Of a stretch of DNA of 64,000 bases, positions 47,001 to 64,000 are shown one piece after another. Where the stretch lies: contig NC_049984.1 in NCBI RefSeq assembly GCF_000003815.2, forward strand, positions 4,562,959 through 4,626,958. The letters are read 5' to 3'. A program made the translations under genes and the position numbers. Source of the stretch: Branchiostoma floridae (lineage: Eukaryota > Chordata > Leptocardii > Amphioxiformes > Branchiostomatidae). Position 1 is the first letter of the stretch. The number at the start of each line of letters is the position of its first letter. The notes under the pieces are model-generated. The model saw only the letters and a list, made by a program, of their open reading frames with translations. It did not search any database and had not been told where the DNA came from.

Positions 47001-48029
47001 TCGACAACATGGGCCCCAAAACAACAAGTGGGACAGAAAAAAATTAAAGCTGGAGACAGCCCTAGAGGAAATCATCAAATCGGCATCTTTGATGTTTTAT
47101 AAAATCACAGAACCCACTAATCATTAAAGACGTGGGACTTTTCATCAGCCACTGCCTCCAAAGAAGAAGTCAATCCTCCCAGAAAAGAATGTAGAGTCAT
47201 GCATATAGATAGATGTATAGAATAGACACTTTTTACTGTCTGTACCCTTGCAATTAGCCTACGGGCATGGATTTGCAAATAAATAAATCAAATCATTGCA
47301 TATCATATTTCTATCTTTATTCTCCTAGATTTATTGAGAATCTGGCCAAAAGCAAAGCACTTATGAGATGTCCTCTCCTCAAAAACAGGAGTAAAATACA
47401 ACAACACTGAGTAAAAAGAAAATTCAACATAAAAAATGCAATGGATAATGGAAAAGTCAGAGTAAAGAAGACAAATCACACAAAAATATACCCAGGGCAC
47501 GTCATGGACCGAAAATTTCCTTGTTGGTACTGTGAAATGAAGTCTCCACTAACCAGGGTTGTCTCTATTTGGTCCTGGGACTGAAAATTTGCTTGTTTGG
47601 AAGGATGAAAATGTCAACCATCCATTCAAAATATCTGACCTTTATGACACGAAATTGATGCAATTGTATTTTCGAAAACTTAAAATGACAGAGGTAACAA
47701 CGAAAATTCACCATATAGGTTCCCAAAGAAGAAGTGGGATGAAGAAAAATTAAAATCTGGAGACAGCCCAGCCAAGAAATTGAAAACAAAGAACAAGGCT
47801 TACTTTCGAACGTTGGACTGATGATGAATGTTTTTCCTCTCCCCAAGAAGTTTTAAGTAAAACATTGAAGAAGCCCTGCTTTGTAGATATTGTGGATTGA
47901 CGAAGAACGTTTTTTTCTTTCCTCTCCCCTCAGGATCTAATCCGAACTAAACAACAGCTGGATGAAGAGCGCGATCACATCCAGGGTGCAATAGACAACC
48001 TCAAGTTATTCTTCAAAAGAGTCTTTTAG
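16842..48029 (+). CDS. GSE1: GSE1-like coiled-coil co-repressor protein, 16 exons, 5' incomplete
   Basis: Coding exons: 16842-17004, 29500-29688, 30846-31018, 32277-32443, 32915-33121, 33746-33949, 34398-34687, 36488-36711, 37822-38658, 39093-39144, 39718-39933, 41148-41276, 42025-42423, 44588-44800, 46666-46769, 47934-48029. All junctions are GT/AG and phases match throughout, giving 3663 nt (1220 codons plus stop). Blocks resembling vertebrate GSE1 occur in the right order: SSFAAALRKLAKQA, PFPHPAFR, a basic coiled coil with EERWQSRQRQMREEK, VVSKLDMEE, ETFGLTTQ followed by KRKRRRM and ERSPSP, FHQSVLQSTQEAL, and a C-terminal coiled coil. Vertebrate GSE1 is about 1217 residues and is a nuclear component of the BRAF35-HDAC/CoREST-LSD1 complex; that role is transferred from the family. 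The initiator and any exon before 16842 are not identified. An in-frame ATG at 29523 in a good Kozak context could start a shorter isoform of 1158 residues. Confidence 0.9.
17180..17715 (-). mobile_element. Diverged tRNA-derived SINE with nested insertion
   Basis: Shares ACTGTAAGGTTGATCCACTC and the box-B-like TTGAACCCAGA with the copy at 19150-19445. Interrupted by the fold-back at 17362-17511. Begins near a (TCA)n microsatellite. Confidence 0.6.
17362..17511. mobile_element. 150-bp fold-back element nested in a SINE
   Basis: Ends CCAGGCAGATTTACCAGTGG and its near-complement, with a second inner pair (AGTATCAAAGCCGGCAAAGG). It splits the SINE-like sequence at 17180-17715. Confidence 0.75.
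17860..18364 (-). mobile_element. tRNA-derived SINE, complete
   Basis: The tRNA-like head on the right has box A TAGCACAGTGG (18339-18349 complement) and box B GGTTCGAATCC (18296-18306 complement). An unrelated body follows and a (AAAT)n tail ends at 17860. GCAATTT flanks both ends (17853-17859 and 18365-18371), a probable target duplication. Confidence 0.8.
19150..19445 (-). mobile_element. Diverged tRNA-derived SINE
   Basis: Same family as 17180-17715: ACTGTAAGGTTTGATCCACTC, CTATAAGTGTGGTAGGGTCTTT and a degraded box B (complement of GATTTGAACCCAGA). Confidence 0.55.
19767..19866. mobile_element. 100-bp relative of the TAGCCTGG inverted-repeat family
   Basis: Ends TAGCCGGGCATCCAG and CCAGGCTA with AGAGACTCGGGAGCT inside, as in the 48141 copy. 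More diverged. Confidence 0.65.
19900..27655. other. Repeat-poor part of GSE1 intron 1
   Basis: Nearly 8 kb with no obvious transposon, SINE or minisatellite, in contrast to most other introns here. Composition is even, with many ATTA-type and CAGCTG-type words. Open frames such as one of 161 codons at 25179-25664 (-) show no known domain. Possible cluster of regulatory elements. Confidence 0.4.
27656..28260. repeat. Tandem repeat, about 150-185 bp, four units
   Basis: Units begin near 27660, 27810, 27995 and 28140 with TCCCCAGGATCATTCACTTC-like strings, AGGAAGGATGTGTTGAAAAA, TCAAGCAATCTGAT and CACTTCCGAATTC. Confidence 0.9.
28261..29499. other. End of GSE1 intron 1
   Basis: No clear repeats. 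A 150-codon open frame at 28842-29294 (+) has no domain I recognize and does not splice into exon 2 in an obvious way. An internal promoter feeding the ATG at 29523 is possible. Confidence 0.35.
29500..29688 (+). CDS. GSE1: GSE1 exon 2 (SSFAAALRKLAKQA motif)
   Basis: Acceptor GACACGCAG ends at 29499 and donor CCAG|GTAGTA follows 29688. It enters in phase 1 and leaves in phase 1. The exon ends with the N-terminal signature SSFAAALRKLAKQA of vertebrate GSE1. ATG at 29523 sits in ACCATGG, a strong initiation context, and could be the start of a transcript from a promoter within the preceding intron. Confidence 0.9.
30846..31018 (+). CDS. GSE1: GSE1 exon 3 (Ser/Pro-rich)
   Basis: Acceptor CCCCTGCAG and donor GAAAG|GTGATT. 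It enters in phase 1 and leaves in phase 0. It encodes a low-complexity Pro/Ser-rich segment (for example PSRQGSSSLTGHQSSSPR), consistent with the disordered N-terminal third of the protein. Confidence 0.85.
31184..31316 (-). mobile_element. Fragment of a LINE reverse-transcriptase ORF, C-terminal end
   Basis: Complement encodes KKVLEEEVGLKDYNLLAAML then DRDAWSDIVNGTSYEDELN and a stop at 31184-31186. The DRxxWR-like end is typical of the C-terminus of non-LTR retrotransposon polyproteins. A (CAGTT)n-type tail follows. Only the last 45 or so codons remain. Confidence 0.65.
31727..32044. mobile_element. Inverted-repeat element with GGGCAAGTG motifs, GSE1 intron 3
   Basis: Ends AGGGTTGGACTAG and CTTGTCCAACCCT with several copies of GGGCAAGTG inside. 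ATATAA flanks both sides. Confidence 0.6.
32277..32443 (+). CDS. GSE1: GSE1 exon 4 (Ser-rich, KTEK)
   Basis: Acceptor TTGTCCTTTCAG and donor CACAG|GTGAGG. It starts in phase 0 and leaves in phase 2. It encodes a Ser/Arg-rich tract and VKTEKVTPG; VKTE fits the sumoylation consensus (hydrophobic-K-x-E), which is inferred only. Confidence 0.85.
32645..32855. mobile_element. Fold-back element before GSE1 exon 5
   Basis: Ends AAGGCTTAGGTCACATTTCC on the left and GGAAATGTGACCTAAGCCTA on the right, about 210 bp, ending about 60 bp before the exon 5 acceptor. Confidence 0.75.
32915..33121 (+). CDS. GSE1: GSE1 exon 5 (PFPHPAFR block)
   Basis: Acceptor CACAAGCAG and donor TTCAG|GTGAGG, phase 2 on both sides. 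It encodes the strongly conserved FQPYRPEDIRHA and FPHPAFR region of GSE1. A fold-back repeat (32645-32855) ends about 60 bp before the acceptor. Confidence 0.95.
33746..33949 (+). CDS. GSE1: GSE1 exon 6 (GIRYPP block)
   Basis: Acceptor is a long T tract followed by AACATTCCAG; donor GACAG|GTAAAC; phase 2 on both sides. It encodes LRAPFLPVPPP and MHGIRYPPHEM, matching the Pro-rich conserved block that follows PFPHPAFR in vertebrate GSE1. Confidence 0.95.
34398..34687 (+). CDS. GSE1: GSE1 exon 7 (charged D/E/R/K coil)
   Basis: Acceptor CCCATTCTACAG, donor AGCT|GTAAGA, phase 2 in and phase 1 out. It encodes a highly charged helix (DKDKDRERQERSRDKERP) equivalent to the long RERERE repeat of vertebrate GSE1 but much shorter. 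It also carries PKNLS, a possible variant of the PxDLS CtBP-binding motif. Confidence 0.9.
35590..35824. repeat. Degenerate ancestral unit upstream of the exon 8 array
   Basis: This stretch has diverged A-type sequence (CAGTAACTGCTATTTGGCACA) followed by an acceptor-like CTACCGTAG without the exon, then a B-type piece (ATTCCAAGCCCTGTTTTGCG). It looks like the unduplicated intron end from which the array grew. The A-type part is the reverse complement of a dispersed repeat seen near 364, 51718 and 52255. Confidence 0.7.
35825..36487 (+). repeat. Four tandem partial copies of the GSE1 exon 8 acceptor and exon start
   Basis: A TAG acceptor followed by CCTCCAGACTACACGACATG recurs with exon starts at 35825, 36016, 36169 and 36335, before the real one at 36488. 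Spacings are 191, 153, 166 and 153 bp. Each copy carries a pyrimidine-rich acceptor and roughly the first 74 bp of the exon, up to GCGCTG, then reverts to intron sequence. Copies 2 and 4 are followed by the same B-type intron piece (ATTCCAAGCCCTGTTTCGC). Copies 1 and 3 are followed by an A-type piece derived from a dispersed repeat. Copy 1 has lost one base in its Ser codons. None has the rest of the exon or its donor. Confidence 0.92.
36488..36711 (+). CDS. GSE1: GSE1 exon 8 (EERWQSRQRQMREEK coiled coil)
   Basis: Acceptor CGACTACCGTAG ends at 36487 and donor CAACAG|GTCTGT follows 36711. It enters in phase 1 and leaves in phase 0. It encodes NQEERWQSRQRQMREEKAER, closely matching the coiled coil of vertebrate GSE1. 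Only this copy of the repeated acceptor unit runs into the full exon; four partial copies lie upstream at 35825-36487. Confidence 0.95.
36888..36916 (-). ncRNA. Hammerhead ribozyme-like core
   Basis: Complement reads CTGACGA, A, GGTGTCT, GAG, AGACGTC, GAAA. Core residues match and stem II has 7 pairs including two G-U. Located in GSE1 intron 8. Confidence 0.55.
37600..37793 (+). mobile_element. LINE-like 3' end with (AAAC)n tail
   Basis: ATGCCTTGAAGGCCGATGAAG then GAATTAAAGGCACAAACAAACAAAC. It ends 29 bp before the GSE1 exon 9 acceptor. Confidence 0.45.
37822..38658 (+). CDS. GSE1: GSE1 exon 9 (largest exon; VVSKLDMEE block)
   Basis: Acceptor TTTCTTCCGCAG and donor CCAAAG|GTACCA, phase 0 on both sides, 279 codons. 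It encodes His/Pro-rich linker sequence, then VVSKLDMEESKIREARMRG and an acidic DCDSDSDCDIE stretch, which align with VSKLDLEE and the following acidic segment of vertebrate GSE1. Exonic GC is clearly higher than in the flanking introns. Confidence 0.95.
38638..38830 (+). repeat. Duplicated exon 9 end and splice donor
   Basis: The exon 9 end plus donor starting CAACTAGATGAGTCACCAAAG at 38638 recurs as CAACTAGACAAGTCGCCAAAG at 38779, again followed by GTACCAAACGG. The offset is 141 bp. Further diverged echoes of the intron part (GCATATTTACTGTATTGCA) occur at about 38896 and 39028, so the unit duplicated more than once. Confidence 0.85.
39093..39144 (+). CDS. GSE1: GSE1 exon 10 (52-bp micro-exon, ETFGLTTQ)
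   Basis: Acceptor TTTCATCAG, donor TGTG|GTAAGA, phase 0 in and phase 1 out. It encodes KLYFLETFGLTTQKRKC, matching LEFLQLFGLTTQQQK of vertebrate GSE1. Confidence 0.92.
39718..39933 (+). CDS. GSE1: GSE1 exon 11 (KRKRRRM, ERSPSP)
   Basis: Acceptor ACAACAG|CAG has two adjacent AGs three bases apart, and either keeps the frame. Donor AAAG|GTGAGG. It encodes the basic KKRKRRRMLMERSPSP motif (likely nuclear localization signal) and the conserved KKSFLAEMGL segment. Confidence 0.95.
40245..40580. mobile_element. Inverted pair of Penelope-like ends
   Basis: Left side has TTCCGGACGTTTCGAGTGACA (- orientation) and right side CCCGAAACGTCCGGAAGTAA (+ orientation), with arms of related sequence and GATGTCTAAACTTCATAAAC at the right. 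The hammerhead core is broken in both ends. Confidence 0.6.
41148..41276 (+). CDS. GSE1: GSE1 exon 12 (EKQRDQQIVDAFK)
   Basis: Acceptor TTTGATTGCAG, donor ACAG|GTAAAC, phase 1 on both sides. It encodes EKQRDQQIVDAFKSGKLRSL, aligning with AEKRKDKERLVEMLRAMKQ of vertebrate GSE1. Confidence 0.92.
41553..41760. mobile_element. TA-flanked fold-back element, copy 3
   Basis: 208 bp, ends CTGTAAATGCA and TGCATTTACAG, TA on each side; lies in GSE1 intron 12. Opposite orientation to copy 2. Confidence 0.9.
42025..42423 (+). CDS. GSE1: GSE1 exon 13 (Pro/Gln-rich; FHQSVLQSTQEAL)
   Basis: Acceptor CTTCTTCGTCCAG, donor CAAG|GTACCA, phase 1 on both sides. A long Pro/Gln/Ser tract precedes FAQRFHQSVLQSTQEALAQK, which is nearly the same as FAHQFHESVLQSTQKALQK of vertebrate GSE1. 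Confidence 0.95.
44588..44800 (+). CDS. GSE1: GSE1 exon 14 (IMEAYQRY)
   Basis: Acceptor TTTGTTTTTCAG, donor CAAG|GTGAGC, phase 1 on both sides. It encodes a Gly/Ser linker and WPGVAVIMEAYQRYTQ, aligning with WQGIEAVFEAYQEHIEEQ of vertebrate GSE1. Confidence 0.93.
44870..45030 (+). mobile_element. LINE-like 3' end
   Basis: AT-rich 3' UTR-like sequence ending GGATCTGAATAAAGTCAAAGTCAAAG, with a short tandem tail as in CR1/L2-type elements. The same tail (ATGGATCTGAATAAAGTCAAG) is at 6470-6495. Confidence 0.5.
45040..45235 (-). mobile_element. tRNA-derived SINE fragment in GSE1 intron 14
   Basis: Complement carries GGTCCCGGGTTCGAAACC, a box B in tRNA context, with a short body. It abuts a LINE-like 3' end. 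Confidence 0.55.
45690..45860. repeat. Tandem duplication in GSE1 intron 14
   Basis: CAACTTCGTCAGACTCAAAGC / CAACTTCCTCAGACTCCAAGC (in part), then TATTCAAATTTCTTTTTGAA and TTGGAACTCT occur twice, about 107 bp apart. Confidence 0.85.
46064..46271. mobile_element. TA-flanked fold-back element, copy 4
   Basis: 208 bp with the same ends and TA flanks, in GSE1 intron 14, same orientation as copy 3. Confidence 0.9.
46666..46769 (+). CDS. GSE1: GSE1 exon 15 (C-terminal coiled coil, first half)
   Basis: Acceptor TTGTGTTTTCCAG, donor TCG|GTAAGT, phase 1 in and phase 0 out. It encodes EQELEREVLQGQFSHLQ and NRTAETLSLRMS with heptad-like leucines, matching EEQNLERQVLQTQ of vertebrate GSE1. Confidence 0.93.
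47215..47290 (+). mobile_element. LINE-like 3' end with (AAAT)n tail
   Basis: CTTGCAATTAGCCTACGGGC then AAATAAATAAATCAAATC, a CR1/L2-style 3' end in GSE1 intron 15. Confidence 0.5.
47934..48029 (+). CDS. GSE1: GSE1 exon 16 (last coding exon)
   Basis: Acceptor TCTCCCCTCAG ends at 47933. The exon encodes TKQQLDEERDHIQGAIDNL and ends FFKRVF with a TAG at 48027-48029. It completes the C-terminal coiled coil and corresponds to the QKQKMVSERERLQAELDHLR end of vertebrate GSE1. Confidence 0.93.
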   Translation, partial: DLIRTKQQLDEERDHIQGAIDNLKLFFKRVF

Positions 48030-48962
48030 TATCACAGAGGTCTCGTCAGTCACAGGAACAAGAACTGCTTTGGTTTAGATTAAGTATTAAGAATCGACTG
48101 CGTTCCCTTAAACTGTAGGTGGCTGGAAGTACTGTTAGAATAGCCTGGTATCCAGCCGTATTGTAGCTCGCCAGTCTATTCTATCCTCCCGAAACTGAAG
48201 AGACTCGGAAGCTCCAATACGGCTGGATACCAGGCTATTGTTACAAGAGGTGTTAGCCAGCCCAAACTTAAATGAAAATTTGTTGTTGTAAGCTTATTGA
48301 CTTGCTAATGTCTTAAATGCAATTCTACAATTTTTTCATTTGTATACTTCAAAGAATGCACGTGTGGAGAAGAATGGTGGACCATAAAATTTGCAGCAAT
48401 GAAATAATGAAATTCTTATTGGTGCACTATGTTATTTTTAAAAAAAGCGTCCATTATTGTAAAATCGAAAATCCATTAGAGCACATACAGGATATTCTAT
48501 AATGCCAACAAATTGTTTTTTCCTGTGCTAAATAATTGCAGATTACCGCTTTTTTGTACTGTTCATGCAATAGCAATTGTCCTTCTTTTTTAATATCTCA
48601 CATCGAGTGGTAAAATTTTTCTTACATTTTTCGAATCAAATGCTTAAACTGCAATACTTTAGAGATTTCTTTTCAGAATAGCTGTTGGGTTGTTAAAAAC
48701 ACCTACTTTTGTACAATTAGCTTAGATGGGGAGAGTTTAAGATCTAATGCAGATACGTTAACAACCTTGCAATACAGGAAGCTTGATTGTGCAAGATATC
48801 TCAGTTGTCTGAGACACTTAGTAGGAAACAGATGTGATTTTGTACCAAGTTTCTGAGGGTCTTTCGTCAAGAAATAAAACAGCTTCATCTAGGAGGTCAA
48901 CAGCCCTTTACAGTATTTGTGTTTTAAAAAGGTGGGAAAAGTCTGTCATGCCTTTGAATAAA
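48030..48962 (+). other. GSE1 3' UTR (inferred)
   Basis: AT-rich sequence after the stop codon. Possible poly(A) signals AATAAA occur at 48873-48878 and 48957-48962. A 97-bp inverted-repeat element sits inside it at 48141-48237. The true cleavage site is not visible from sequence alone. Confidence 0.5.
48141..48237. mobile_element. 97-bp inverted-repeat element in the GSE1 3' UTR
   Basis: Ends TAGCCTGGTATCCAGCCGTA and the complement. Flanks TGTTAGAA and TGTTACAA are a likely decayed 8-bp duplication. Interior contains GAGACTCGG, shared with 19767-19866 and 60649-60761. Confidence 0.8.
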
Positions 48963-49934
48963 AGAATTTCACATCATTTCCAATAGTTGGGCTGTTGTAC
49001 AATTGTCGGTGCTATTTAGCAGAAGAATATCTTCACCAAAACACAAAGAATTTGTTCTTCTCAAGAATGGAGCAATGGAAGCTTTCAAAGCTTGACAAAA
49101 GAAGTCAAGCTGCAATAGAATGTACGACTAAGGAGGTATCCGAGAGTATGAGTAGTAGATTTCTCCAGTAAGTTTCTTCTTCTGGCTGATACCGAGACCT
49201 TTCCGAACATTTGAAGGAGCACCGGACTTGTACAAGAGGATGTGTATCTATTCTACATGTATAGGAATCCGTGTATTTTAGACCAAGTCAGTGCTTACAT
49301 CTATTTTATTTATTCTACAGTAGGAACAATCTTGTACAGAACTGTTATTATCACAGAGGCTTGGCTGTCGAAAAGGCAGAATAAAGAGATACTTTTTTCC
49401 ATGTATTTGTTGAACTGACTGATTCTGTGTTTCGTAGTGAACTGAGTAGCTCAAAGAAGTGACTTTTGTTTCTGTGCACAATAGTAATGTACCAGATTGG
49501 TGACTGTGCCATTTTCAGAAGATACACAAACTGGTACTTCTGCTGTACCATAACAAGCTGTTCGGGTTCCCTAAATCTAATGATTTCAAGGTCTCAACAC
49601 GACATACTCACGTACCAAATATCAAACATTGATCAAGGTCTACCAGAGGTCCAACACATATATGATACGCAAATGAACTCCTGCCAAAAGCATACCTTTC
49701 TAGCATCCGATGATCCGTGAATAATTTTATACAGTTGGAGAATTGCTAGTTATCAAGGTTCTCATTATTCACAATCAAGACAAGTCGGTTGCATCCACTT
49801 CAAATCCCTTGTGTTCCCATTAGAGAGCAACATCCAGATGTTAGTTCTCTTTACAAAGTTTCAGCAACACAATGTTAGACCTATAGTCGATAAGGCGGCA
49901 GAAGGATGACGGCTGAGACACAACGGTTTACCGT

Positions 49935-49963
49935 TTTCGACCTTTTATTCAAAAGTTCATCAG
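49935..49963 (-). ncRNA. Decayed hammerhead-like core
   Basis: Complement reads CTGATGA, ACTTTT, GAAT, AAAAGGTC, GAAA. Core residues are intact, but stem II is out of register, suggesting decay. Confidence 0.4.
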
Positions 49964-50381
49964 AATCAACAATGTTAGACTTATAAGACTCATTAGAATG
50001 TAAGCTGTATCTGTTATATACTTTGTCTGACTCTTCCCTCATGACCTCAATGAAAAGTGGCCTGCAGGCCGATTTGAGCTTTCATGAATAAGCAAAGGTT
50101 AAAAAAACGTTCATCAGCCAAGGACCATTTCATGTTCAAATGTTCTTTGTATATTCTATTGTTTCCCTATTTCAGGCACCAACTGCCCCATAGTAAAACT
50201 ATACATAACAGCAAGGAGATATACATGTACACATTCAACATGTCAGTAAACAGAGAAACAGCAATCTGAATATACACAGACGCCTCCAGAGGTTTTCGAA
50301 TAATTTTTCGATCTATGTCACAAATAGAATAAATCTGATTTGAGCACAGGCTGTATAAGGGTGTTAGATAAGTGGATAAAC

Positions 50382-50650
50382 TAATCTCCAAGCAGATTCC
50401 TCCGTGGCAAGACAGTAACATAGGCTGGGGAAGGACTTAAGCCGGCAGAGGAGTAAAATTAGGCCAATTTTACTCCTATTGTCGGCTTAAGTCCTTCACC
50501 AGCTTATGCAGATTAAGCAGATTCCTCCGTGGCAAGACAGTAACATAAGCTGGGGAAGGCTAGCGGCCCGGGAAATAACCGTAGCCGCGAGCGCTGTTCT
50601 CTGGATACCAGGGTAACTGTCTTGCCACGGAGGAATCTGCTTGGAGATTA
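50382..50650. mobile_element. 269-bp hAT-like element with nested fold-back
   Basis: Long terminal inverted repeats starting TAATCTCCAAGCAGATTCC, and an exact 8-bp duplication GGATAAAC at 50374-50381 and 50651-50658. Its left inverted-repeat sequence appears twice because an inner fold-back (about 50428-50507) is inserted within or duplicated from it. Confidence 0.88.
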
Positions 50651-50699
50651 GGATAAACCACTTACAAAAGAGTAGCACTGTGTATGCCATCTGCGTCAA

Positions 50700-52019
50700 A
50701 TTTGTATGTCAAGTGGAATGACAAGCCTAAGCTTTCACTACAGCTGCAGGCCTCCGGCAAATTCATAAATTGTTAACGTTGTATACAATTACCGCTGACA
50801 GCTACACAAAGATTATTTTGAAAACATATCAAGTGCAAAGTGAGTCTACCTCTTAGAACAGTTGATACCACAAACAAAAAGATAGCATAAAAGATAAGAT
50901 ATAACCCTAGAACATATGCCCACACACAAAATTATATATGCATGTACTCATTTTTTGTCATTGCAATATGTTACATCATCTTAATTTAAGATCCAAATTT
51001 TCACTCAATGAAAATATGTTTTTACACTTAATTAACTGTGCCAATACGTATGTACAAAGTAGAATTGAATGTACATGTATACACTTGATTTAACCAGGAA
51101 AGAGACCTTCAGAGTGAAGGATTCAAGTAGTATATATAGAACAGAACCATCAGCTTTTGATTATCATTCAGTTGCTGAGTTTACTGATGTTTTCATCGGT
51201 TGGTTTATCGGCCTATTGCAGAATACTTTATTTATTCCTGTACAACTAACTTAGCCCACTCTTGCATGAACATACAACAAGCATCATTCAAGAAATAATA
51301 CGTGCACTTCGTTGGTCGGCGGGAAAGGTTCACATTTTGACTACACAGGTAACATTTGCAAGCAAGTACATAATGTTTATTTACCGTTCACATGGTCTAT
51401 CCTAACAAACTACTCCCCTGCCTGATAAAAGCTCCTTGCCCAGCCCTAGTCCTGACAATAATCAACTTTCAATAGGAATTTGTGGCAGCGCGAAACCGAA
51501 CAGGTTGAAACATTTTTTTGATTGGTATTTTGGTACGTAATTACCCTATTGTGAGTTTGCCGCACGCGTGGGAGTTATATCAATTTTACCCCTTTGTACG
51601 CACGTACAATCCACATGAAAAAAAGACGTGTCAGTCAAATATTGCTAATTTCCCCAGTACCCCGCAGACTCTTTGTTCTGTTCTATGTAGGCTATGCATG
51701 AGACGAAAATACGTCGATGAAGGTTAGACATAACAGGTAAGAAGATATGCCAAAAAGCAGTTACTCAAGACGAAATTGTTTGGATCGTGCACGAAGTTGT
51801 CTTGTCGAGACGTGTAACGCGGCGTGTTTTTAAAAATCACCAATTCTTACCAAAACATAAACGGACAATTTCACTTTGACATGTACATGTGAGCACATTT
51901 GTATTACACTTCAGAGGTTTGACTTAAATAATCCAACGTTATATACACTTGTATAAATGTATGAAACACATCTCCGACGCTTTACCATTTGAGTTTCTCC
52001 GTAGCACCGTATGTTTAAA
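50700..52019. other. Gene-free intergenic stretch
   Basis: AT-rich. ATGAAGGTTAGACAT at 51716 is a fragment of the dispersed repeat that also appears in the exon 8 array. No exon recognized. Confidence 0.4.
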
Positions 52020-53100
52020 ATCTCTGTAGCTGTAGAATACAGTGAAGATGCCGTAGGACCGTGTGATTTCATTTTGATTGAAAGGAAATTTCATGTCGGG
52101 CCCATATCGGTTGTGAAGAAGATATATCAGACGTCCTTAGCTTGATGAAAGAAGGCAATGCAGTCATGTGGTTCCAAAACCATGTCAAGAGAAGATCCGC
52201 TCAGTTGATTAATCCGTTTAATCTACGTCGATGAAGTTTCTTTTGTACAATCTTCAAAATCACATCCATTTGCTTGAGTAATTGCTATGATGTGGCGATA
52301 AAGAAATGGTACAAAATAGAAAGCCTGACAAAAATGCCGGAGCCGAACCTCCGCTTGGAGAGTAATTAACTGATACTTTTGAGTGAAATCAATCCGTCTA
52401 CGAAGCTAGAGATACACTTTTACATGTACATGTATGAGGTAGCATCCAATTCTTATTCTTTGAGCTACAACTTTGAAATGAAATCTTCCTTCTGTGCAAA
52501 CTGTGGGTCATTTTCTTATATCAAAACAGACCTGTACATGGACAGCAAGAAGAGGACGCAGGACCTTGTAATTTCATTTTGATTAAAAGGGATTGACGTG
52601 ATCTCGTGAAGCTGAAGGCGCATATCAGATGTAAGATATGTGATATGATGTCCGTCCTTGATGTGGTGAAAGACATTACAGTGATGTGTAATTCCAGAAC
52701 GGAAGAAGATACGCTCAGTTGATTAAACCGTTTGATCTATGTCAATGAAGGTGTTTTTCACAATCTTCAAAATGATACCCGAATGCTATTTAGCGTTTGA
52801 TGTATTTTCGAGGTTGACATGTATATAATGTAGGTTTGGCCTGCAGACATAAATGGTACAAAATAGAAAGCCCCACAAAAATGCCGGAGCCGAACCTCTG
52901 CTTGGAGAGTAATCAACTGGTACTTTTAAGTGAAATCAATCCATGGTGAAATCTATCCATCTACGAAGCTAGAAAAACGATTTTATTTGTACATGTATGA
53001 GATAGCATCCAACTCGTGTTCTTTGAGCTTTGAGTTTAGATTTACAACTTTGAAATGAAATACTTCCTTCTGTGCAAAAGGTGGTTATTTTCTAGTATCA
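52020..53100. repeat. Diverged 510-bp tandem duplication
   Basis: ATTTCATTTTGATT (52060, 52568), CGCTCAGTTGATTAA (52198, 52711), AAAAATGCCGGAGCCGAACC (52330, 52877) and AACTTTGAAATGAAAT (52470, 53046) recur in order about 510-575 bp apart. Confidence 0.85.
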
Positions 53101-53185
53101 ATTGGTACTTTTGAGTGAAATCTATCCATCTTGAAATGAAATACTTTCTTCTGTGCAAAAGGTGGTTATTTTCTAATATCAAAAC

Positions 53186-54164
53186 TAGTGGTGCGTACCT
53201 AAACTCAATTTCAGGTTCAGGTCCGGATTCAGGTCCAGCACTTAAAGTCCGGACCTGAACCCATCATTGCATATTATTTGCATTTTTTTAGGGGGAGGGG
53301 GGGAAGGTTCATATAAAATTGCATGTTAGCATGAATTGAAATGCAATGTGAAAAATACATGAAAATGATAGACAGCCAGTGTAAACACGAACTGTTTTTG
53401 TCTTTTTCCAGTGCAAATTTTACTGTCTATGGAAGGTTTTAAATGGTTTAGAACAAACAAGTGCTTTTAAAAAAGCTGGCATTTTGCCAATGTTTGCGTG
53501 TGTGAACGTTTTTTTCTAGTTATTAGAATGTCATATAAATAGAACAGAGTAACTAAACCTGATATTGGCGCATGGAGAGATTCACATATGTGCCTGAATC
53601 TAGATCTAGACGCCACCTGTTAAAATTTGCGTGAACTGCAGCAAATTTCACTACACTGCCTGTTTTTGAGTGAGCTCTGTTGCGGGGCATTTTTAAGTTT
53701 TTTTTTTAAATTTTTATTTCTATTCGGCAAAAAAACGAAGCGGCGAATCCGTTAACCAAAGAAATAAATTGGTGTGGCCAAATGGATGTAAAAATTAGTA
53801 TTTTAATGGATGTAAAAAAGAAAAAAAAAAAATCTACCTCCCCGGATTCGAACCGGGTGCATTGGTTTAGAATGCGTAAACTTTAACCACTGCGCCAGTG
53901 CGAACATGTTGGAAAAATGTCTGTTTTAACAGGTTTAGAAATGTTTGGCATGGATTGAACAGGTCCGTTCATCACAACGGCGACTATTCTGGCCTCAGAG
54001 CATTTTGCCGCTAAGGCGGCAAAATGCAAAAAAAGGGAATATAAGTGACAGATTGCTTTTTGCAAGTCCGGACTTGGCTCCGGACATTTAGGTTTTTTTT
54101 TTGGACTTGGACCTATACATTTTTAGGTCCAATTCCAAGTCCGGGCTTTAGGTACGCACCACTA
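53186..54164. mobile_element. 979-bp hAT-like element carrying a tRNA-like sequence
   Basis: Terminal inverted repeats TAGTGGTGCGTACCTAAA and TTTAGGTACGCACCACTA. Exact 8-bp target duplication ATCAAAAC at 53178-53185 and 54165-54172, typical of hAT elements. Subterminal GTCCGG repeats occur near both ends. No transposase reading frame is evident, so it is non-autonomous. Confidence 0.9.
53832..53905 (-). other. tRNA-like sequence inside the hAT-like element
   Basis: Box A-like TGGCGCAGTGG (53888-53898) and box B GGTTCGAATCC (53844-53854), a perfect T arm (CCCGG/CCGGG), an anticodon-like stem GCATT/AATGC, and a run of T after the 3' end. The acceptor stem does not pair, so it is a tRNA-derived relic or SINE head rather than a functional tRNA. 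Confidence 0.6.
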
Positions 54165-54544
54165 ATCAAAACAGATCGGTACAGGGCCAGCAAGATCCTG
54201 CCGGCCAAACAGTCTCCAATCGCCTCCGGTTAAAAATAGTTGGCCGACCGGATATTGCTAGCCCCAGTAGAGATTTGAAAATCATGATTCATACATACAA
54301 CAAACATCAGAATCTATCTACGAAGCTAGGAACACACTTATACATGTATAAGATGCAACATTTGAATTAGATTATTCCTTCTATAGCTGACAATATCTTG
54401 CCAGCCAAATAATCTCCAATCGGGCCCTGGTCTGATTTGTTTGGCTGTTTGGAGATGAGTTGTTTTCGAGAAACATGATTATTGCTTCATTCCATGTTTT
54501 TCAAATATCATGAAGTTGACTAGTGTTTTCTGTGACTACGCCTC

Positions 54545-55597
54545 TTACCTCCACTTCTTCAAATAGTCTATTGCTTCGTTCTTGAAACGGTAGAGAACGC
54601 CTCTTACCCCCACTTCTTCAAATCGTCTATTGCTTCGTTCTCCTACCGGTAGAGAACGCCTCTTTCGGTACCTCCACTTCTTCAAATCGTCCATTACTTC
54701 GTTCATGGTCAAGTGCATCCGGTAGAACTGTCTCCTCACCGCGTTCCTGATGAACTGGTGGGTGAAGGCGTACATCAGCGGGTTCATGAAGGTCGTCAGC
54801 AGATTCAGAAGGATGAATATTCTTTGGAAGGCGTAGTCCGACATTGTTGCTGCGTCCTTCTCAGCGATGATGATGTTGATGACGAGTCCAGGCAGCCAGG
54901 TGATCCAGAAGGCTCCGGCCATGAACGCCGTGCGTTTGAGAGTCTCCCAGACGTACACGGCCGCCCCGAAGCTTGCCTTGATCGCCGCCAGCCGCTTGGC
55001 TTCGCGATAGGACAGGTAGTGAGACACGGTGGTGGAGAGGATGCACCACAGGAAGCTGGCCAAGAAGATGACGTTGGCACTCTTGGAGTAGCCCCAGCAG
55101 ACCAGCATCCCCGGGTTGAACTTGAAGTCGGTTCCTTCCACCAGGGGCAGCACCGCCGCTACGCCGCCGGGGAGGAAGCACGCGCCCCCGACCAACTTCG
55201 CCACGTCGTCGGTAAACTTCGTGAGGTATTCCGTCGGCCTGGTGACCATAAGCAGTCGGGAACCGCACACCGCCCCAAGAAGACACAGCGACGAGATGAT
55301 GGTGAAGTTGCCCACAAGGCCCTGCACGGTGCAGTAGACCTGGCCGAACTTGTAGCCGCCCATGCCCAGAACCAACACAGTGATAGGGATGCTGTTCAGA
55401 GCGCCGACGATGTGAATAAACGACAGCGCGACCAGCAACAGGTTGCCCGGAGTCTGGAGGTTGCTCTCGCGGTAGACGACTGACATCACCAGGCTGTTGG
55501 TTACCAGAGCCAGCAGCAGGACGATGGTGAGATACACCACCTGTAGGATCTGCGCCGCACCGTCCGCGAAGAGGAGTTCCTCCAGTTCCTCTGCCAT
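54545..55597 (-). CDS. Rhodopsin-class GPCR, intronless, orphan
   Basis: Single exon, 350 residues if the start is the Met at 55597, which the second copy also uses; an in-frame Met at 55642 would add 15. Predicted helices: TM1 17-42, TM2 51-77, TM3 85-115, TM4 132-153, TM5 173-198, TM6 222-244, TM7 258-279. Cys89 and Cys167 can form the usual TM3-loop 2 disulfide. TM6 has FWITWLPG and TM7 has NPLMY, the NPxxY motif. Unusual points: the DRY position reads GSR (112-114), the usual TM2 Asp seems absent, and no TM7 retinal lysine is present, so it is not an opsin. The C-terminal tail consists of tandem repeats. Ligand unknown; possibly a lineage-specific receptor. Confidence 0.85.
   Translation of the reverse strand: MAEELEELLFADGAAQILQVVYLTIVLLLALVTNSLVMSVVYRESNLQTPGNLLLVALSFIHIVGALNSIPITVLVLGMGGYKFGQVYCTVQGLVGNFTIISSLCLLGAVCGSRLLMVTRPTEYLTKFTDDVAKLVGGACFLPGGVAAVLPLVEGTDFKFNPGMLVCWGYSKSANVIFLASFLWCILSTTVSHYLSYREAKRLAAIKASFGAAVYVWETLKRTAFMAGAFWITWLPGLVINIIIAEKDAATMSDYAFQRIFILLNLLTTFMNPLMYAFTHQFIRNAVRRQFYRMHLTMNEVMDDLKKWRYRKRRSLPVGERSNRRFEEVGVRGVLYRFKNEAIDYLKKWR
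54546..54711 (-). repeat. Tandem repeats in the GPCR C-terminal coding end
   Basis: Three units of about 60 bp share CCACTTCTTCAAAT and GGTAGAGAACGCCTCTT on the + strand. In the receptor they encode DDLKKWRYR, a middle RFEEVGVRGVLYR and a final DYLKKWR. The units differ by substitutions and small indels, so the stop codon position reflects repeat expansion. Confidence 0.8.
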
Positions 55598-55889
55598 GAT
55601 GATACCCGCACTTACCGTCCTCACGGCACCCGCAATTAACACTCACTGGTGTGAATTCTACGTAAGGTCCGTGATAGTGCATAACTAGTCTCATCAGCAT
55701 CCGCATGCCCCCTGGCGGGTAGTGAATTTAAATCGGAGCTTCCAATTCAGCTTGCAATTCAGGGGATAATTCCCCTTCCCTTAACGTTCCTCATTACCAT
55801 ATTTGGTATCTGCTTATATTCCACCTATCATAATTAACATGTGTTACATTTATTGAAGTCCAGTTATTGCAAACAATGGAATTATACAA

Positions 55890-58200: not shown

Positions 58201-58211
58201 AAGATGGCGGC
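58201..58211 (+). promoter_or_regulatory. YY1-type site over the GCSH start codon
   Basis: AAGATGGCGGC matches the YY1 consensus and overlaps the ATG. YY1 sites at or just after the start are common in nuclear genes for mitochondrial and housekeeping proteins. Its activity here is inferred. Confidence 0.5.
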
Positions 58212-58342
58212 GGTCGCGATGAGGTGCGCAAGGGGTCTGGCCTTTCGGGCCACAAAACTTCTCACCTCGACACAAACACCCACCTACCACGGTGCCCAGA
58301 CGTTCAGAAGGTTCAGTAGAACAGTCACGGTCTTCGAGTCAG
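58204..58342 (+). CDS. GCSH: GCSH exon 1 (mitochondrial presequence)
   Basis: ATG lies in AAGATGGCGGC. The exon encodes 46 codons with many Arg, Ala, Thr and Ser and no Asp or Glu until the final ES, as expected for a matrix-targeting peptide ([19 protein letters not shown]). Donor TCAG|GTGTGA; phase 1 joins to TG of exon 2 to make Val, matching the S-V-R/K-K-F-T junction of other H proteins. Confidence 0.88.
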
Positions 58343-61300
58343 GTGTGACATAGCCCTGCGTGTTTGAAAAATCAAGGAAAGTTGTCGTCGTTGTTAGCCA
58401 GAAAAGGGGGGGGGGGGGCACTTGAGCTGGGGCATCGGTCATAAAGTCCGTAGTACACTCAGCTCAGGTCAGGTCACGTTTGCTGTAGCCCACTCTCCAA
58501 GCAGAGGTTGTTGGAGAAAATCGTGACCCCTTTCTTCAAAGTTATATGCCCTCTTTTTCTGTCCGCTAACCCGACTTTTTGATATCGTTACTAGACAGAA
58601 AAAGTCATGATTTTCCCTATCAACCTCTGCTTGGAGAGTAACTTTTTCCATGGTCAATGGTGAAATACCAGAATCTACCAGAAATACCAAATGCCATTAA
58701 GATCGTTCCACAACTTGTGGTGGGCCATCCACAAACATACATAGATTGATACAAACAAATGACACTGAAAATATAGCCTTCGTGTCAAAGTACTTTAGTA
58801 CTGTGTGAAGGTACTACATGTATATATTTCATACGCCTTATTAAATAATTAATGTGGTCGTAGAACACAGTATTTATTCTATTCATGACCACCATCTCCA
58901 ATAGTAGTTATGGTATGAAATAATTCGTGACCATGGCAATTCTTCCATGCATGTCAGTGAGGCACAAACTGTTCTAAATGTTAGAGGAATCCATCCGAGC
59001 TGGATTATGATGTTTGTTCGGTCAGTGTAAATCTGAAAATGACTACTGATAGTTCTGTTACTGCCAGCAACTTACCACCAACTGCTGGGTGTCAGCTACA
59101 GCTTCGCTGAGTTACATGATGTAAAAGTGGGATTTTGAAGGGAACGAGTCGGCAAGTTTAGTTGAATTTTACTGATATTAGCTCATTTTTCACGTATTTC
59201 ATACATTACATTGCACACAGAACTCAGACATGTTTTTTTTACCAATCTTGTGCACTTTACTTAAACTTTGAAGTGTTGTTAGCATCTTCCTGTTGGGTCA
59301 TATCTTAAGACTGTCCCTTCTAATGCCAACAATCTCTGTTGTGCAGTGAAGAAGTTTACTAAAGAACACGAGTGGATAAGTATGGATGGAACCACTGGTA
59401 CCATTGGTATCACCAACCATGCACAGGTTAGTGCTCTTCATATGTATAACAAGAAAGCTTCTGAAAAAAGCTGGCCGGTGCGTATTTTGGAAAAAGCCTG
59501 GATGTTAAACAAAATCACACGAAAAAAGAGTTTTTAAACATCGAATTACTGAATTGGTCTTTCTTCTATTAAAAAAACACTACATGAGATTTGTCTAACA
59601 AAGAAAAAAAAAATTAGCAAGTGGGGTTCGAACCTACGATCTACGGAAGATAGGTACCGTGCTGTAGACCGCTCGGCCACGCTGGCTCAAATACGCAACA
59701 GCACGTATAGAAGGGCTATTTGGTTAAAGTGACCGATCCATGCATCCATCCATCCATCCATGCATCCATACAACCGCTTCTCCCGTCTCATAGCCGGTGC
59801 TACGCACCGGCAAAAAATGCCTTGTAATACTGGGTGCAATGCAGCATGTGCACTCTTTTACTGTCAAGATTGGAGATGTGTACCTGATTTTTGACTGGGT
59901 GCACCTCTGCACCTAGATATTTGTGTTGGGTTATTTAAGCGAAGGTACACTAGTGCACACTACATGGGCTATTCTTGAGATTCAAGTGTAAGAAGAAATA
60001 ATAAAACCATCGTTTGTTCTGGACTGGAAATACTGGGTGCATATGCAAGCACTTTTGTGCATCCAAAATTGGAGCTGTGCACCTACTTTTTGAGTGCACT
60101 GGTACACATACTATTTTATGTTGGGTTATGTAAGTGAAGGAAATAATAATGTCTATTGTCTTACTCCTTTGAAATCAGTTACTGAATTTGGATTCATCAC
60201 AATTTTACAAAGCTTGGAGCTTTGTTTGCACTGTGCATACTGACATTGGGTGTGTGTTAATTGAATAATAATAATATCGGGTGTATTTTGCAGCCAGTAG
60301 GTACCCAAAGTGTGGGTAATGAGGCTGTTTAACGTGGTTGAGGCTCCTCCTCGAGCACGGAACCCCCGTTTTACGTCCCTCCCGGAAGACGATTTCGTGG
60401 AAAGCTTCGTGAGGCTACTCTCACTGTTTATATGTTTATGAAGGTTGTTGAGTGTATATGATCAGAGAAGGTTGTATTTAGTATCACATGGCCTGTAACA
60501 TTTCTGCCCGGTACAGGCGAGCCTGGGTGAACTTGTGTATGTGGACCTCCCAGAAGTAGGAAAAGAACTAAGCAAAGGAGGTGAGTATATATTGTCAACC
60601 AGACATGTTTTGATTTTGTGCTAGAACGTCAGTGGTAGCATAGATCTTCTATCCTGGTATCCAAACCAACTTTAACTACCGAGTCTCTTTTGTCCTCTTT
60701 TATCCTATTTGGAAAAGAAGACGAAAGGAACTCTGTAGCCATCATAGGTCTGAATACCAGGCAGTCAGTTTCCTTGCTCCTGTAAAAATTACCTTCCCCT
60801 GGAAAAGTCTGCAATGTATGATCGTTCTGATTGTTACCATGTTAAACTATTGATGATAATTTTGCCTCTTTTTGTGTTCCTCTTGCCTTCCAGATGAGTG
60901 TGGCGCTATGGAGAGTGTAAAAGCAGCTAGCGACCTGTTAGCCCCTGTTAGCGGAGTGTGCATAGAAGTCAACAGCGCCTTGGAGGAAGATCCTAGTCCC
61001 ATCAATTCCTCCCCCTACGAAGATGGTAAGGAATATTGTTGAAGAGGTTCATCAGTCGTACAATTACAACAATTTTCTTCAATCCATGACTGTTTTGTAA
61101 AGGTACAGTACATACCTCCCAAATTTTCGATGTCTACCAGCACATCTTTGTCAAGGGGAATGACCTAGTCTCAGTTCTCGCAAGGAGGCGGCGGGAGGGG
61201 GCAGATGATCCACACAAGCCTGACCTAGTCTCGTGTTCTCTCATGAGAACTGAGACTAGGTCATTCCCCTTGACGAAGATGTCCTGGTAGACATCGAAAA

Positions 61301-62275
61301 TTTGGGAGGTATGTACCTTACCTTTACAAAACAGTCATTGATTGAAGAAAATTGTTGTAAATGGTAAGGAATAAAATTTGAACTTAAAGGCATAGCTCAT
61401 CTAGCCTGGGTACCATCCGGGTAGTACTAGTAGTTTTCTCCTTTGTTTGCATCTGTTACCCTTCAGGGGACCTGCACATTCAAGCCGTTTGGTGCAAACG
61501 TCAGTTAATGAGCGAATTAAGGAATTGGTTCTCGAGCCCTTGTTCAATGACAACTGAGGCCCTTCCACAAGCGGACAGAGGGTGTTTTGGGCGTTGGAGC
61601 GAACTACTTTCCGGATGGTACCCAGGCTAAAGGTGATCTGTAATTTCCAACACAAAAGAGTTAGCTTAGCACAGTGCTAAACATTCTTCCAACACAAAGG
61701 TACACACAGATCAAATTTTCAACGACCACTGTTGCCTTTTTTCAGGATGAAATATAAAAGAGGTACAGTTACTGAATAAAGAGACTCTTGTCTGTCACCT
61801 TCTTCAGGGCAGTTCTGACTTGTAGTGCTAAAAGTGCTAAAAGATATATCAACTGAACATATATCATTACATACATATATGGTACCCCAAAAAAAAGAGT
61901 AGAGTGAAAGCTCAGGGTTTTGGTCACTTTTTCACTTTAACTTTAACTTAAACATGATATGACATTATTGGACTAGTTAAAGTGTAATATCCAACAAATT
62001 GGACTCTTTGATTGAACCGCACCAGTCCAATTTTTGTGTTGGATATTACAGTTTAACTAGTCCAATAATGACTTCTACCAACACAGATGAACTTTCAAGT
62101 TATGATATGACATTGATGTTTTCCTTCTCCAGGCTGGATACTAAAGATGAAGCTGAGCAAGCCAGAAGAGTTGGAGGAGTTGATGGATGAGGAGGTGTAC
62201 CAGGCGTTTGTGAAGTCCGAGGAACCAGAGCCAGGTGATCCAGAAGGCTCCAGTCATGAGCGCCGCACGTTTTAG
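58204..62275 (+). CDS. GCSH: Glycine cleavage system H protein, mitochondrial
   Basis: Exons: 58204-58342, 59347-59426, 60517-60580, 60894-61025, 62133-62275; 558 nt, 185 residues plus stop, all junctions GT/AG and in phase. H protein carries the lipoyl arm that shuttles the aminomethyl group between the P, T and L proteins of the mitochondrial glycine cleavage complex. Exon 1 encodes an Arg-rich presequence without acidic residues until its end. The body has [23 protein letters not shown], and the lipoylation motif ESVKAAS with the Lys codon at 60920-60922, then [16 protein letters not shown]. Length exceeds the human protein (173) partly because of a C-terminal tail of about 14 residues derived from antisense GPCR sequence. 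Confidence 0.95.
58492..58639. mobile_element. 148-bp element with ACTCTCCAAGCAGAGGTTG ends
   Basis: Perfect 19-bp terminal inverted repeats in GCSH intron 1. The end sequence CCTCTGCTTGGAGAGT recurs near 3145, 6975-7160, 52345 and 52890. Confidence 0.8.
59347..59426 (+). CDS. GCSH: GCSH exon 2 ([10 protein letters not shown])
   Basis: Acceptor CTGTTGTGCAG and donor CACAG|GTTAGT. It encodes [14 protein letters not shown] and IGITNHAQ, the conserved start of the H-protein fold. Confidence 0.95.
59614..59688 (-). other. tRNA-like sequence in GCSH intron 2
   Basis: Box A TGGCCGAGCGG and box B GGTTCGAACC followed by a T run. Resembles a Ser- or Leu-type tRNA 5' half, but stems are imperfect. 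It lies within a stretch bounded by GCCGGTGCGTA (59471) and TACGCACCGGC (about 59812), which may be the ends of a host element. Confidence 0.5.
59735..59770. repeat. (CATC)n microsatellite
   Basis: ATGCATCCATCCATCCATCC and similar, nine or so units. Confidence 0.9.
59828..60135. repeat. Direct duplication in GCSH intron 2
   Basis: AATACTGGGTGCA, GTGCACCT and TGTTGGGTTAT occur in the same order near 59828-59935 and 60028-60130. Confidence 0.7.
60517..60580 (+). CDS. GCSH: GCSH exon 3 ([13 protein letters not shown])
   Basis: Acceptor CCGGTACAG and donor GGAG|GTGAGT, phase 0 in and phase 1 out. It encodes [20 protein letters not shown]. Confidence 0.95.
60649..60761. mobile_element. Diverged relative of the TAGCCTGG family in GCSH intron 3
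   Basis: TCCTGGTATCCAAA on the left and AATACCAGGCA on the right, with GAGTCTCTTTTGTCCTCTTT inside. Ends are decayed. Confidence 0.5.
60894..61025 (+). CDS. GCSH: GCSH exon 4 (lipoyl-lysine exon)
   Basis: Acceptor TTGCCTTCCAG and donor GATG|GTAAGG. It encodes [19 protein letters not shown] with the lipoylated Lys, and [12 protein letters not shown]. The 13-bp donor context ATGGTAAGGAATA is repeated at 61361-61373 on the far side of a large hairpin. Confidence 0.95.
61064..61360. repeat. 297-bp near-perfect hairpin in GCSH intron 4
   Basis: Arms start TTACAACAATTTTCTTCAAT and end with its complement. The arms, each more than 100 bp, also share TACCTCCCAAATTTTCGATG, GTCAAGGGGAATGACC and CTCAGTTCTC. 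It begins 39 bp after the exon 4 donor. Confidence 0.85.
61403..61629. mobile_element. 227-bp relative of the GPCR-disrupting element, in GCSH intron 4
   Basis: Same ends (TAGCCTGGGTACCATCC / GGATGGTACCCAGGCTA) and shared internal sequence with 62977-63404, but shorter. No clear target duplication. Confidence 0.8.
61967..62101 (+). mobile_element. Inverted-repeat insertion next to the GCSH exon 5 acceptor
   Basis: Contains an internal inverted repeat (GGACTAGTTAAA and TTTAACTAGTCC) and ends with GATGAACTTTCAAGTT. The 13-bp sequence ATGATATGACATT flanks it at 61954-61966 and 62102-62114. Its last 75 bp match 16741-16816. Confidence 0.75.
62133..62275 (+). CDS. GCSH: GCSH exon 5 with GPCR-antisense tail
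   Basis: Acceptor TTTTCCTTCTCCAG ends at 62132. Normal H-protein sequence ([29 protein letters not shown]) runs to about 62230. From there to the TAG at 62273-62275 the DNA matches the complement of the GPCR TM6 region (54896-54960), and the frame reads [14 protein letters not shown]. The host gene probably once ended near 62230, and the stop is now supplied by the inserted fragment. Confidence 0.93.
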
Positions 62276-62319
62276 AGTCTCCCAGACGTACACTTGACTT
62301 GATTGCCGCCAGCTGCTTG
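62227..62319 (-). pseudogene. Extra GPCR TM5-TM6 fragment fused to the GCSH exon
   Basis: Matches intact GPCR positions 54896-54990 with about 15 bases deleted, so the TM6 region is present twice here (again at 62335-62420). It overlaps the last 45 or so coding bases of GCSH on the opposite strand. Confidence 0.85.
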
Positions 62320-63490
62320 TCGATGATGATGTTGATGACGAGTCCAGGCAGCCATGTGATCCAGAATGCTCCGGCCATCACCGCCGTACGTTTGAGAGTC
62401 TCCCAGACGTTCACGGCCGTCCCGCAGCTTGACTTGATCGCCGCCAGCCGCTTGGCTTCGCGATAGGACAGGTAGTGAGACACGGTAGTGGAGAGGATGC
62501 ACCACAGGAAGCTGGCCAAGAAGATGACGTTGGCACTCTTGGAGTATCCCCAGCAGACCAGCATCCCCGGGTTGAACTTGAAGTTGGTTCCTTCCACCAG
62601 CGGCAGCACCACCGTTACGCCGCTGGGGAGTAAGCACGCGCCCGCGGCCAACTTCGCAACATCGTCGGTGAACTTGGTGAGGTAGTCCGTCGGCCTGGTG
62701 ACCATGAGCAGTCGGGAACCGCACACCGCCCCGAGAAGGCACAGCGACGAGATGATGGTAAAGTTGCCCACAAGGCCCTGCACGGTGCAGTAGACCTGGC
62801 CGAAGTTGTAGCCGCCCATGCCCAGAACCAATACCGTGATAGGGATGCTGTTCAGAGCGCCGACGATGTGAATAAACGACAGCGCGACCAGCAACAGGTT
62901 GCCCGGAGTCTGGAGGTTGCTCTCGCGGTAGACGACGGACAGCACCAGATTGTTGGTGACCAGAGCGAGCAGCAGGTAGCCTGGGTACCATCCAGATAGT
63001 AGCTCGCTCCTATGTTCGCTTCTGCTTTCCGTCTGGAGACATGCGCATTCAAACCATTTGTTGCTAACGTCAGTTAATGAGCAAATCAAGGAATAGGTTC
63101 TAGAGCGCTCGTTCGATGACAACAGACCTTCCGCAAGGGGACGGAGGGCTTGTCCGTTGTTGGAACTCCTAGCCCTGTTCGAACGAGCGTTTGAACCCAT
63201 TCCATAATTCGCTCCTGTGGGGACCAATCAGCGCCTGCGTCCAAAATTTGGACAATTCCAGACGTTAAGATGGTCCGCGTTCCCATACGGAAACACAGAG
63301 AAGCGACTGTATATAGTGTATAATGAATGTCAGAGGTAGGAGCGACTGTATATGGTATATAATGAACGCCAGAGCAAACTACTTTCCGGATGGTACCCAG
63401 GCTAAGCAGCAGGACGATGGTGAGATACACCACCTGTAGGATCTGCGCTGCACCGTCTGCAAAGAGGAGTCCCTCCAGTTCCTCTGCCAT
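62320..63490 (-). pseudogene. Second GPCR copy, interrupted and 3'-truncated
   Basis: Very similar to the intact GPCR at 54545-55597. The first part (63405-63490) encodes MAEELEGLLFADG through the start of TM1. It is interrupted by a 428-bp inverted-repeat element (62977-63404). Coding similarity resumes at LALVTNNLVLSVVY and continues through TM6 to VINIII near 62320. TM7 and the tail are missing, and a rearranged fragment follows. About 140 bp upstream of the Met is also shared with the intact copy, which argues for a DNA duplication rather than retroposition. Confidence 0.88.
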
Positions 63491-63606
63491 GATGATACCC
63501 GCAATTACCGTCCTTGCCCACAGTAAACGCTTACTGCTGACAAGAATCCGGACATGTGTATTTTACGTAAGGTCTCCGATAGTGCATCACTACTATCCTG
63601 ATTAAA
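62871..63606 (+). promoter_or_regulatory. Candidate GCSH poly(A) signals
   Basis: The first AATAAA I see after the GCSH stop is at 62871-62876, inside the antisense GPCR copy. ATTAAA at 63601-63606 lies just past it. Either would place much of the GPCR copy in the GCSH 3' UTR. Confidence 0.4.
62977..63404. mobile_element. 428-bp terminal-inverted-repeat element inside the GPCR copy
   Basis: Ends are TAGCCTGGGTACCATCC and GGATGGTACCCAGGCTA. AGCAGCAGG occurs on both flanks (62968-62976 and 63405-63413) and once in the intact GPCR, so it is an 8-9 bp target duplication, suggesting a hAT or Mutator-type non-autonomous element. No transposase is visible. Confidence 0.88.
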
Positions 63607-64000
63607 TCTCGCTCATAGCGGCGCGCCCGGCATCCGCAGGCCCCCTAGCGAGTAGCGTGCTTCGCAGCCTTCTTTCCTTATTGCTTTATTTTGGGGCAAA
63701 AATAGCTAATTAAAAAGCAGTGGCATGTATACTTGGGAGGGGTGGGTGGGTGAACGAATCCCGCAGTGATGTAAGCTTGACGCAAGCGCAGTGAGATACC
63801 ACCTTAAGGGATATCCACATATTGGGGCTCAAAGTGGGGCTTACTACTGTAATATGCACGTTAATCCAGGTAGGTTGTGTAAGTACAATTAAGGAGGCTA
63901 TCCTATATAACCTCCTTGGTACAATGTATTTCTGACAAACTGTAGAATGTATCACCATCACAGGTTAATATTCACTGCTGTATATACAGTGCAATTGGAC

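Follow-up and report, generated by a model that had tools for sequence, protein, structure and literature searches.

We analysed a window of 64,000 nucleotides of the Branchiostoma floridae genome (G000:C6:4562959-4626958), and positions given without the contig name C6 are counted from its first base. The detailed study began at about 54 kb and extended about 19 kb past the end of the window; 45000-54860 was compared with the junction only, and the remainder of the window was covered by self-comparisons only. On the plus strand the order of genes is GPCR-A (minus strand, complete), GCSH-1, GPCR-B (minus strand, without TM7) and GCSH-2. The last is a whole second GCSH gene (G000:C6:4628830-4636257), which is collinear with GCSH-1 and lies just outside the window. 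The two outer genes, GPCR-A on the left and GCSH-2 on the right, are complete. At the junction between the inner genes, GCSH-1 is without its last codon, stop codon and 3' flank, and GPCR-B is without TM7. The features are listed in Table 1.

Table 1. Features of the GCSH/GPCR locus (positions in the window, or on contig C6 where stated).
Feature	Position	Strand	Remarks
GPCR-A, intact single-frame class A receptor, 350 aa	54545..55597	-	
GCSH-1 exon 1, presumed mitochondrial leader region	58204..58342	+	ATG, GT donor, frame
GCSH-1 exon 2	59347..59426	+	Surrounding open frame matches Pfam GCV_H, E 5e-5
GCSH-1 exon 3	60517..60580	+	Splice borders and frame
GCSH-1 exon 4, ESVKAAS motif	60894..61025	+	Surrounding open frame matches Pfam GCV_H, E 1e-14
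GCSH-1 exon 5	62133..62275	+	Conserved to about 62230, then receptor-derived tail and TAG
GPCR piece C, ICL3-TM6, 14 bases deleted	62229..62319	-	First receptor piece at junction
Novel 14-codon tail of GCSH-1	62231..62272	+	Antisense to GPCR stretch read as TM6, codons in register
TAG stop of GCSH-1	62273..62275	+	GAG in GPCR-A and GPCR-B
GPCR-B body, end of TM1 to TM6, without TM7 and C-tail	62321..62976	-	
First AATAAA past GCSH-1 stop	62871..62876	+	596 bases past stop, inside antisense GPCR-B
Transposon-like insert, terminal inverted repeats	62977..63404	.	Splits GPCR-B TM1; flanked by AGCAGCAGG direct repeats
N-terminal end and 5' flank of GPCR-B	63405..63592	-	82% match to 55512-55687
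GCSH-2 exon 1	C6 4628830-4628968		
GCSH-2 exon 2	C6 4631314-4631393		
GCSH-2 exon 3	C6 4631918-4631981		
GCSH-2 exon 4	C6 4634974-4635105		
GCSH-2 exon 5	C6 4636154-4636257		

The GCSH genes and the receptor copies

The five exons of GCSH-1 have AG/GT borders, and their in-frame join gives an open frame of 185 aa. The product is a full-length match to Pfam GCV_H (PF01597, profile positions 2-121 of 122, E 3.5e-45). GCSH-2 has an open frame of 172 aa, and the Pfam scores of the two are close (153.3 bits for GCSH-1 and 156.7 bits for GCSH-2). The motif ESVKAAS is intact in both genes, and its lysine in GCSH-1 is presumably the lipoyl lysine. All eight H-protein matches found in the genome at E ≤ 1 lie inside these two genes.

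It had been predicted that normal H-protein similarity ends near 62230, and this agrees with what we found. The GCV_H match stops at residue 167 of 185. The phmmer alignments to solved H-proteins reach query residue 122 of 138, which is the last E of KSEE, and none goes beyond it. In the alignments to the mammalian H-proteins PDB 8ugo, 2edg and 3klr, the ESVKAAS of GCSH-1 is identical to that of the solved proteins, and the match stops one residue before their own end. GCSH-1 thus resembles these proteins in its whole domain, its motif and its alignment to the KSEE end, and differs from them in carrying PE and 14 receptor-antisense residues after KSEE. A C-terminal end shortly after KSEE is usual for H-proteins, although membership is possible without it; GCSH-1 has 16 residues after this point and GCSH-2 has three. 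The GCSH-2 frame ends KSEEQES-TAA and contains no receptor DNA, so that only one of the two GCSH genes has an altered end. This also bears on where the ancestral GCSH end lay, as far as the paralogue GCSH-2 alone can tell.

The acceptor region of GCSH-2 exon 5 (TTTTCCTTCTCCAG then GCAGTTC) is present in a second copy (C6 4635912-4636157). The repeated region lies about 155 bases upstream of the real acceptor and is a possible decoy splice acceptor. Intron 4 of GCSH-1 contains a 119-base inverted repeat that is 95% complementary with a 65-base spacer (61061-61363).

GPCR-A matches the class A (rhodopsin-family) profile 7tm_1 over its full length (profile positions 2-260 of 260, E 1.6e-19), and its best PDB match, among the best 60 of 262 matches, is 5-HT1B (E 2e-12, residues 16-133). 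GPCR-B lies about 7 kb from GPCR-A, which is upstream of it. Its 7tm_1 match stops at profile position 225 of 260, and its TM1 is split by the insert; apart from the insert its frame is open. The two bodies align without gaps over 656 bases and are 94.4% identical. Unlike a class A receptor, piece C and GPCR-B are fragments, and the enzyme tail uses piece C in antisense. The adjoining copy GPCR-B is truncated and interrupted, and is presumably dead. A receptor search of the same genome gave GPCR-A and GPCR-B as the best matches and the next at 33% identity, among the 116 of 238 candidates that were scored.

The insert belongs to a transposon-like family with the ends TAGCCTGGGTACC/GGTACCCAGGCTA, which has two members here, one in TM1 of GPCR-B (62977-63404) and one in GCSH-1 intron 4 (61402-61630). 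The AGCAGCAGG repeats around the former resemble a target duplication of 8-9 bases, which would fit hAT elements. The end of the GPCR-A coding frame enters 59-base direct repeats (54538-54719), and its C-terminal tail ends DYLKKWR; the receptor tail may therefore have been lengthened by repeat expansion, and it may be a second altered gene end at the locus. Diverged direct repeats with a spacing of about 0.5 kb are clustered at 52044-53182.

The tail and stop codon of GCSH-1

We searched the genome with the segment 62133-62319 and found it in at least four places among the best candidates, which were scored. These are the segment itself, the GCSH-2 exon about 11 kb downstream (99% over query bases 1-91), GPCR-A and GPCR-B. 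GCSH-1 tracks GCSH-2 up to about 62230 and GPCR-A from 62229, which places the joint at 62229-62231. Three mismatches between the GCSH copies fall at 62224-62230, which leaves a margin of about 7 bases on the point where GCSH sequence stops.

The bases before the TAG had been described as the complement of the GPCR TM6 region, and the alignment confirms it. Over 62231-62275, 39 of the 45 bases are identical to GPCR-A (6 differences), and 8 of the 45 differ from GPCR-B. The match is far beyond chance. The tail codons sit opposite receptor codons in the same register, and we read the receptor stretch as TM6 from its ITWLP motif.

The original prediction had antisense receptor sequence supplying both the C-terminus and the stop codon of GCSH. 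The first part stands, because the exon from 62231 to the TAG is receptor DNA on the opposite strand. The second part does not: a stop codon present in the receptor copies is rejected, since GPCR-A and GPCR-B both have GAG there. The change from GAG to TAG in piece C corresponds to CTC to CTA on the receptor strand and is synonymous (Leu to Leu). Judging from these alignments, the tail residues derive from receptor DNA, whereas the change that made the stop is confined to piece C among the three copies. The TAG may have arisen after the fusion, or it may stem from a receptor allele that already had CTA.

The antisense frame of GPCR-A, counted from the base equivalent to the junction, is open for 195 codons, because only 3 of the 351 receptor codons are TTA, CTA or TCA. 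In the present layout the next in-frame stop beyond the TAG is the 24th tail codon. Without the TAG there would be 23 tail codons at the present junction, so the G-to-T change would have shortened the tail to 14.

The 16 residues after KSEE have a net charge of −2, with histidine left out. The tail is probably a short, polar and disordered addition beyond the folded H domain, and GCSH-1, if expressed, would be expected to be an active H-protein with a tail. Such a tail may be tolerated because the normal-ended GCSH-2 next door supplies the standard protein. The joint also contains a possible splice donor (CAG|GTGATC).

Origin and age of the junction

The joint contains an extra piece, C, between GCSH-1 and the body of GPCR-B. 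In the self-comparison of the window, 62229-62319 matches GPCR-A at 54894-54998 (78% including one 14-base gap, E 3e-21) and GPCR-B at 62350-62454 (76%, E 2e-18). The body of GPCR-B begins 29 receptor bases earlier than piece C. The two are therefore overlapping receptor pieces, and the event was complex or stepwise. Piece C differs from GPCR-A at 9 of 91 bases and from GPCR-B at 11 of 91; GPCR-A and GPCR-B differ at 9 of 105. On these counts, piece C as a recent tandem copy of GPCR-B was rejected. Among 13 variable sites, A alone differs at two, B alone at four and C alone at six, and all differ at one, which is close to a three-way split.

The heterozygosity of amphioxus is 3.2-4.2% and complicates assembly, according to PMC12862219, and the junction might then be an artefact in which haplotypes were misjoined. 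We consider this very unlikely. A, B and C differ from one another by about 9-12% in the shared stretch, so misplacement of A or B does not by itself explain piece C. Moreover, GPCR-B carries an insert of its own, and GCSH-1 and GCSH-2 differ strongly in their introns and at 30 of 507 coding bases.

The 5' flanks match between the two units, at 82% for the receptors and 88% for the GCSH genes. Between these flanks the spacers barely align, with only six short stretches of 26-35 bases in common (three collinear, three resembling repeats), which speaks against a simple picture. The comparison of the gene ends upholds the earlier claim of a gene-end fusion by duplication: GCSH-2 ends KSEEQES-TAA, and GCSH-1 switches to receptor antisense at the homologous place. 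The pattern very probably arose when a segment bearing the GPCR gene and the GCSH gene beside it was duplicated in tandem, in one step or more; this grading concerns the fusion and not expression or function. The breakpoints would lie in receptor TM6 and in the final GCSH codons. The inner junction would then link GCSH-1, at its last codons, with antisense TM6 sequence of GPCR-B, and this sequence would take the place of the normal GCSH-1 end. The GCSH frame continues into the receptor because the antisense register of TM6 is open. A single event of this type could account for both the new end of GCSH-1 and the lost end of GPCR-B, with both outer genes left whole.

Alternatively, intact GPCR and GCSH genes were duplicated, and a later deletion fused the gene ends by taking out the spacer, TM7 of GPCR-B and the stop of GCSH-1 together with its 3' flank. 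This variant of the tandem duplication fits the complexity of the junction. The low dN/dS between GPCR-A and GPCR-B (0.26; 20.5 synonymous and 16.5 replacement changes, Fisher p = 1e-4) and the otherwise open frame of GPCR-B also suggest that this copy was under constraint for a time. GPCR-B is less decayed than expected if it was dead from birth, which is a hint and not a rejection: with B neutral throughout and only silent changes in A, 13-15 of the 20.5 silent changes would have to fall on A (binomial tail 0.06-0.13).

The third point in favour of a later deletion is an exon 5 tract that is more alike between the GCSH copies than the remainder. Exon 5 up to 62223 (91 bases) and the preceding 87 intron bases differ at 2 of 178 sites, and exons 1-4 at 28 of 415 (Fisher p = 0.003, for a tract picked post hoc after BLAST). 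In GCSH-2 additional intron sequence breaks up this tract, and its count excludes the three mismatches at 62224-62230. With coding bases only (2 of 92 against 28 of 415), significance is lost (p = 0.14). The tract hints at later gene conversion between the GCSH copies, up to the joint.

However, the two-step course requires an extra event. Piece C is as far from A and B as A is from B, which suggests that the pieces at the junction date from the duplication. In addition, 62200-63700 has no match at E ≤ 0.01 to 73290-83041 or 45000-54860, which lie beyond the outer gene ends; the segment thus contains nothing of the GPCR-A 3' end or the GCSH-2 3' flank, although the deletion would remove both. 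We therefore regard two steps as rather unlikely, and one step with breakpoints inside both genes as the likelier course and a reasonably probable one.

The silent divergence is 0.133 between GPCR-A and GPCR-B (218 codons) and 0.082 between GCSH-1 and GCSH-2 (169 codons). The synonymous diversity of B. floridae is given as 0.0397 in PMC12862219, and the two divergences are 3.3 and 2.1 times this value, respectively. If the B. floridae rate from the same source holds (one passage there gives another exponent), the ages would be about 11 million generations for the GPCR copies and about 7 million for the GCSH copies.

Fate of the altered gene and comparison with known systems

The 3' flank of GCSH-2 is absent past the GCSH-1 junction, and polyadenylation of a GCSH-1 transcript would have to occur at a new site. 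The first AATAAA past the GCSH-1 stop lies within receptor antisense DNA (Table 1), the next is at 64105, and ATTAAA occurs at 63601, 63709 and 64741. This raises the alternative that GCSH-1 is a dying copy, in which the tail is never made because the gene is not expressed or its transcript has no proper 3' end. Such a fate would be compatible with an origin by tandem duplication. The substitutions are in line with it, as GCSH-1 and GCSH-2 differ by 8.7 synonymous and 21.3 replacement changes (dN/dS 0.68), rates that are indistinguishable (Fisher p = 0.27), and the ratio is 1.24 in the mature part. Selection seems to have been relaxed or altered in at least one of the copies.

However, the frame, the splice borders and ESVKAAS are all intact in GCSH-1, and its Pfam score is close to that of GCSH-2. 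The first AATAAA of GCSH-2 is likewise distant, at 410 bases past its own stop. At the 14 domain sites where the copies differ, the mammalian residue is found in GCSH-1 at five and in GCSH-2 at four, and five sites are uninformative; therefore neither copy is a clear loser. Taken with these observations, decay of GCSH-1 is possible, but we doubt it.

In exon 1 (47 codons) there are 5 synonymous and 4 replacement changes, and in exon 4 (60894-61025 against C6 4634974-4635105, 44 codons) there are 0.7 and 12.3 (p = 0.30). The replacement excess in exon 4 is striking in so conserved an enzyme and is not significant alone; it possibly reflects functional divergence.

Since the GCSH-1 gene has lost its own 3' flank, its mRNA would enter antisense GPCR-B. 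Several hundred of its bases would be about 94% complementary to the GPCR-A mRNA. The GCSH-1 mRNA might thus be a built-in trans-antisense regulator of GPCR-A, possibly producing siRNA, in addition to encoding a new protein tail. On present evidence this is highly unlikely; if true, a housekeeping mitochondrial gene would regulate a neighbouring receptor in trans.

In the literature, for the most part outside subscription papers and preprints, we found no paper on the GCSH/GPCR locus. The process itself is of a known kind. PMC4503668 and PMC5460883 describe tandem duplications in Drosophila whose breakpoints inside genes lead to chimeric genes and recruited non-coding sequence. As in those chimeras, an intragenic breakpoint joins the 5' part of a gene to foreign sequence that provides a new end. 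Unlike them, GCSH-1 keeps nearly the whole enzyme. Its recruited piece comes from a protein-coding gene and is read in antisense. The copies here are 8-13% diverged at silent sites, so the GCSH-1 fusion is not freshly formed, in contrast to those chimeras.

The locus is a compact natural example of a duplication breakpoint rewriting the end of a protein. Both source sequences are known, and the adjoining normal-ended paralogue provides a control. A single base change accounts for the stop of GCSH-1, and on the receptor strand that change is silent. The locus also illustrates how easy antisense read-through can be, with just three of 351 receptor codons having a stop as their complement.
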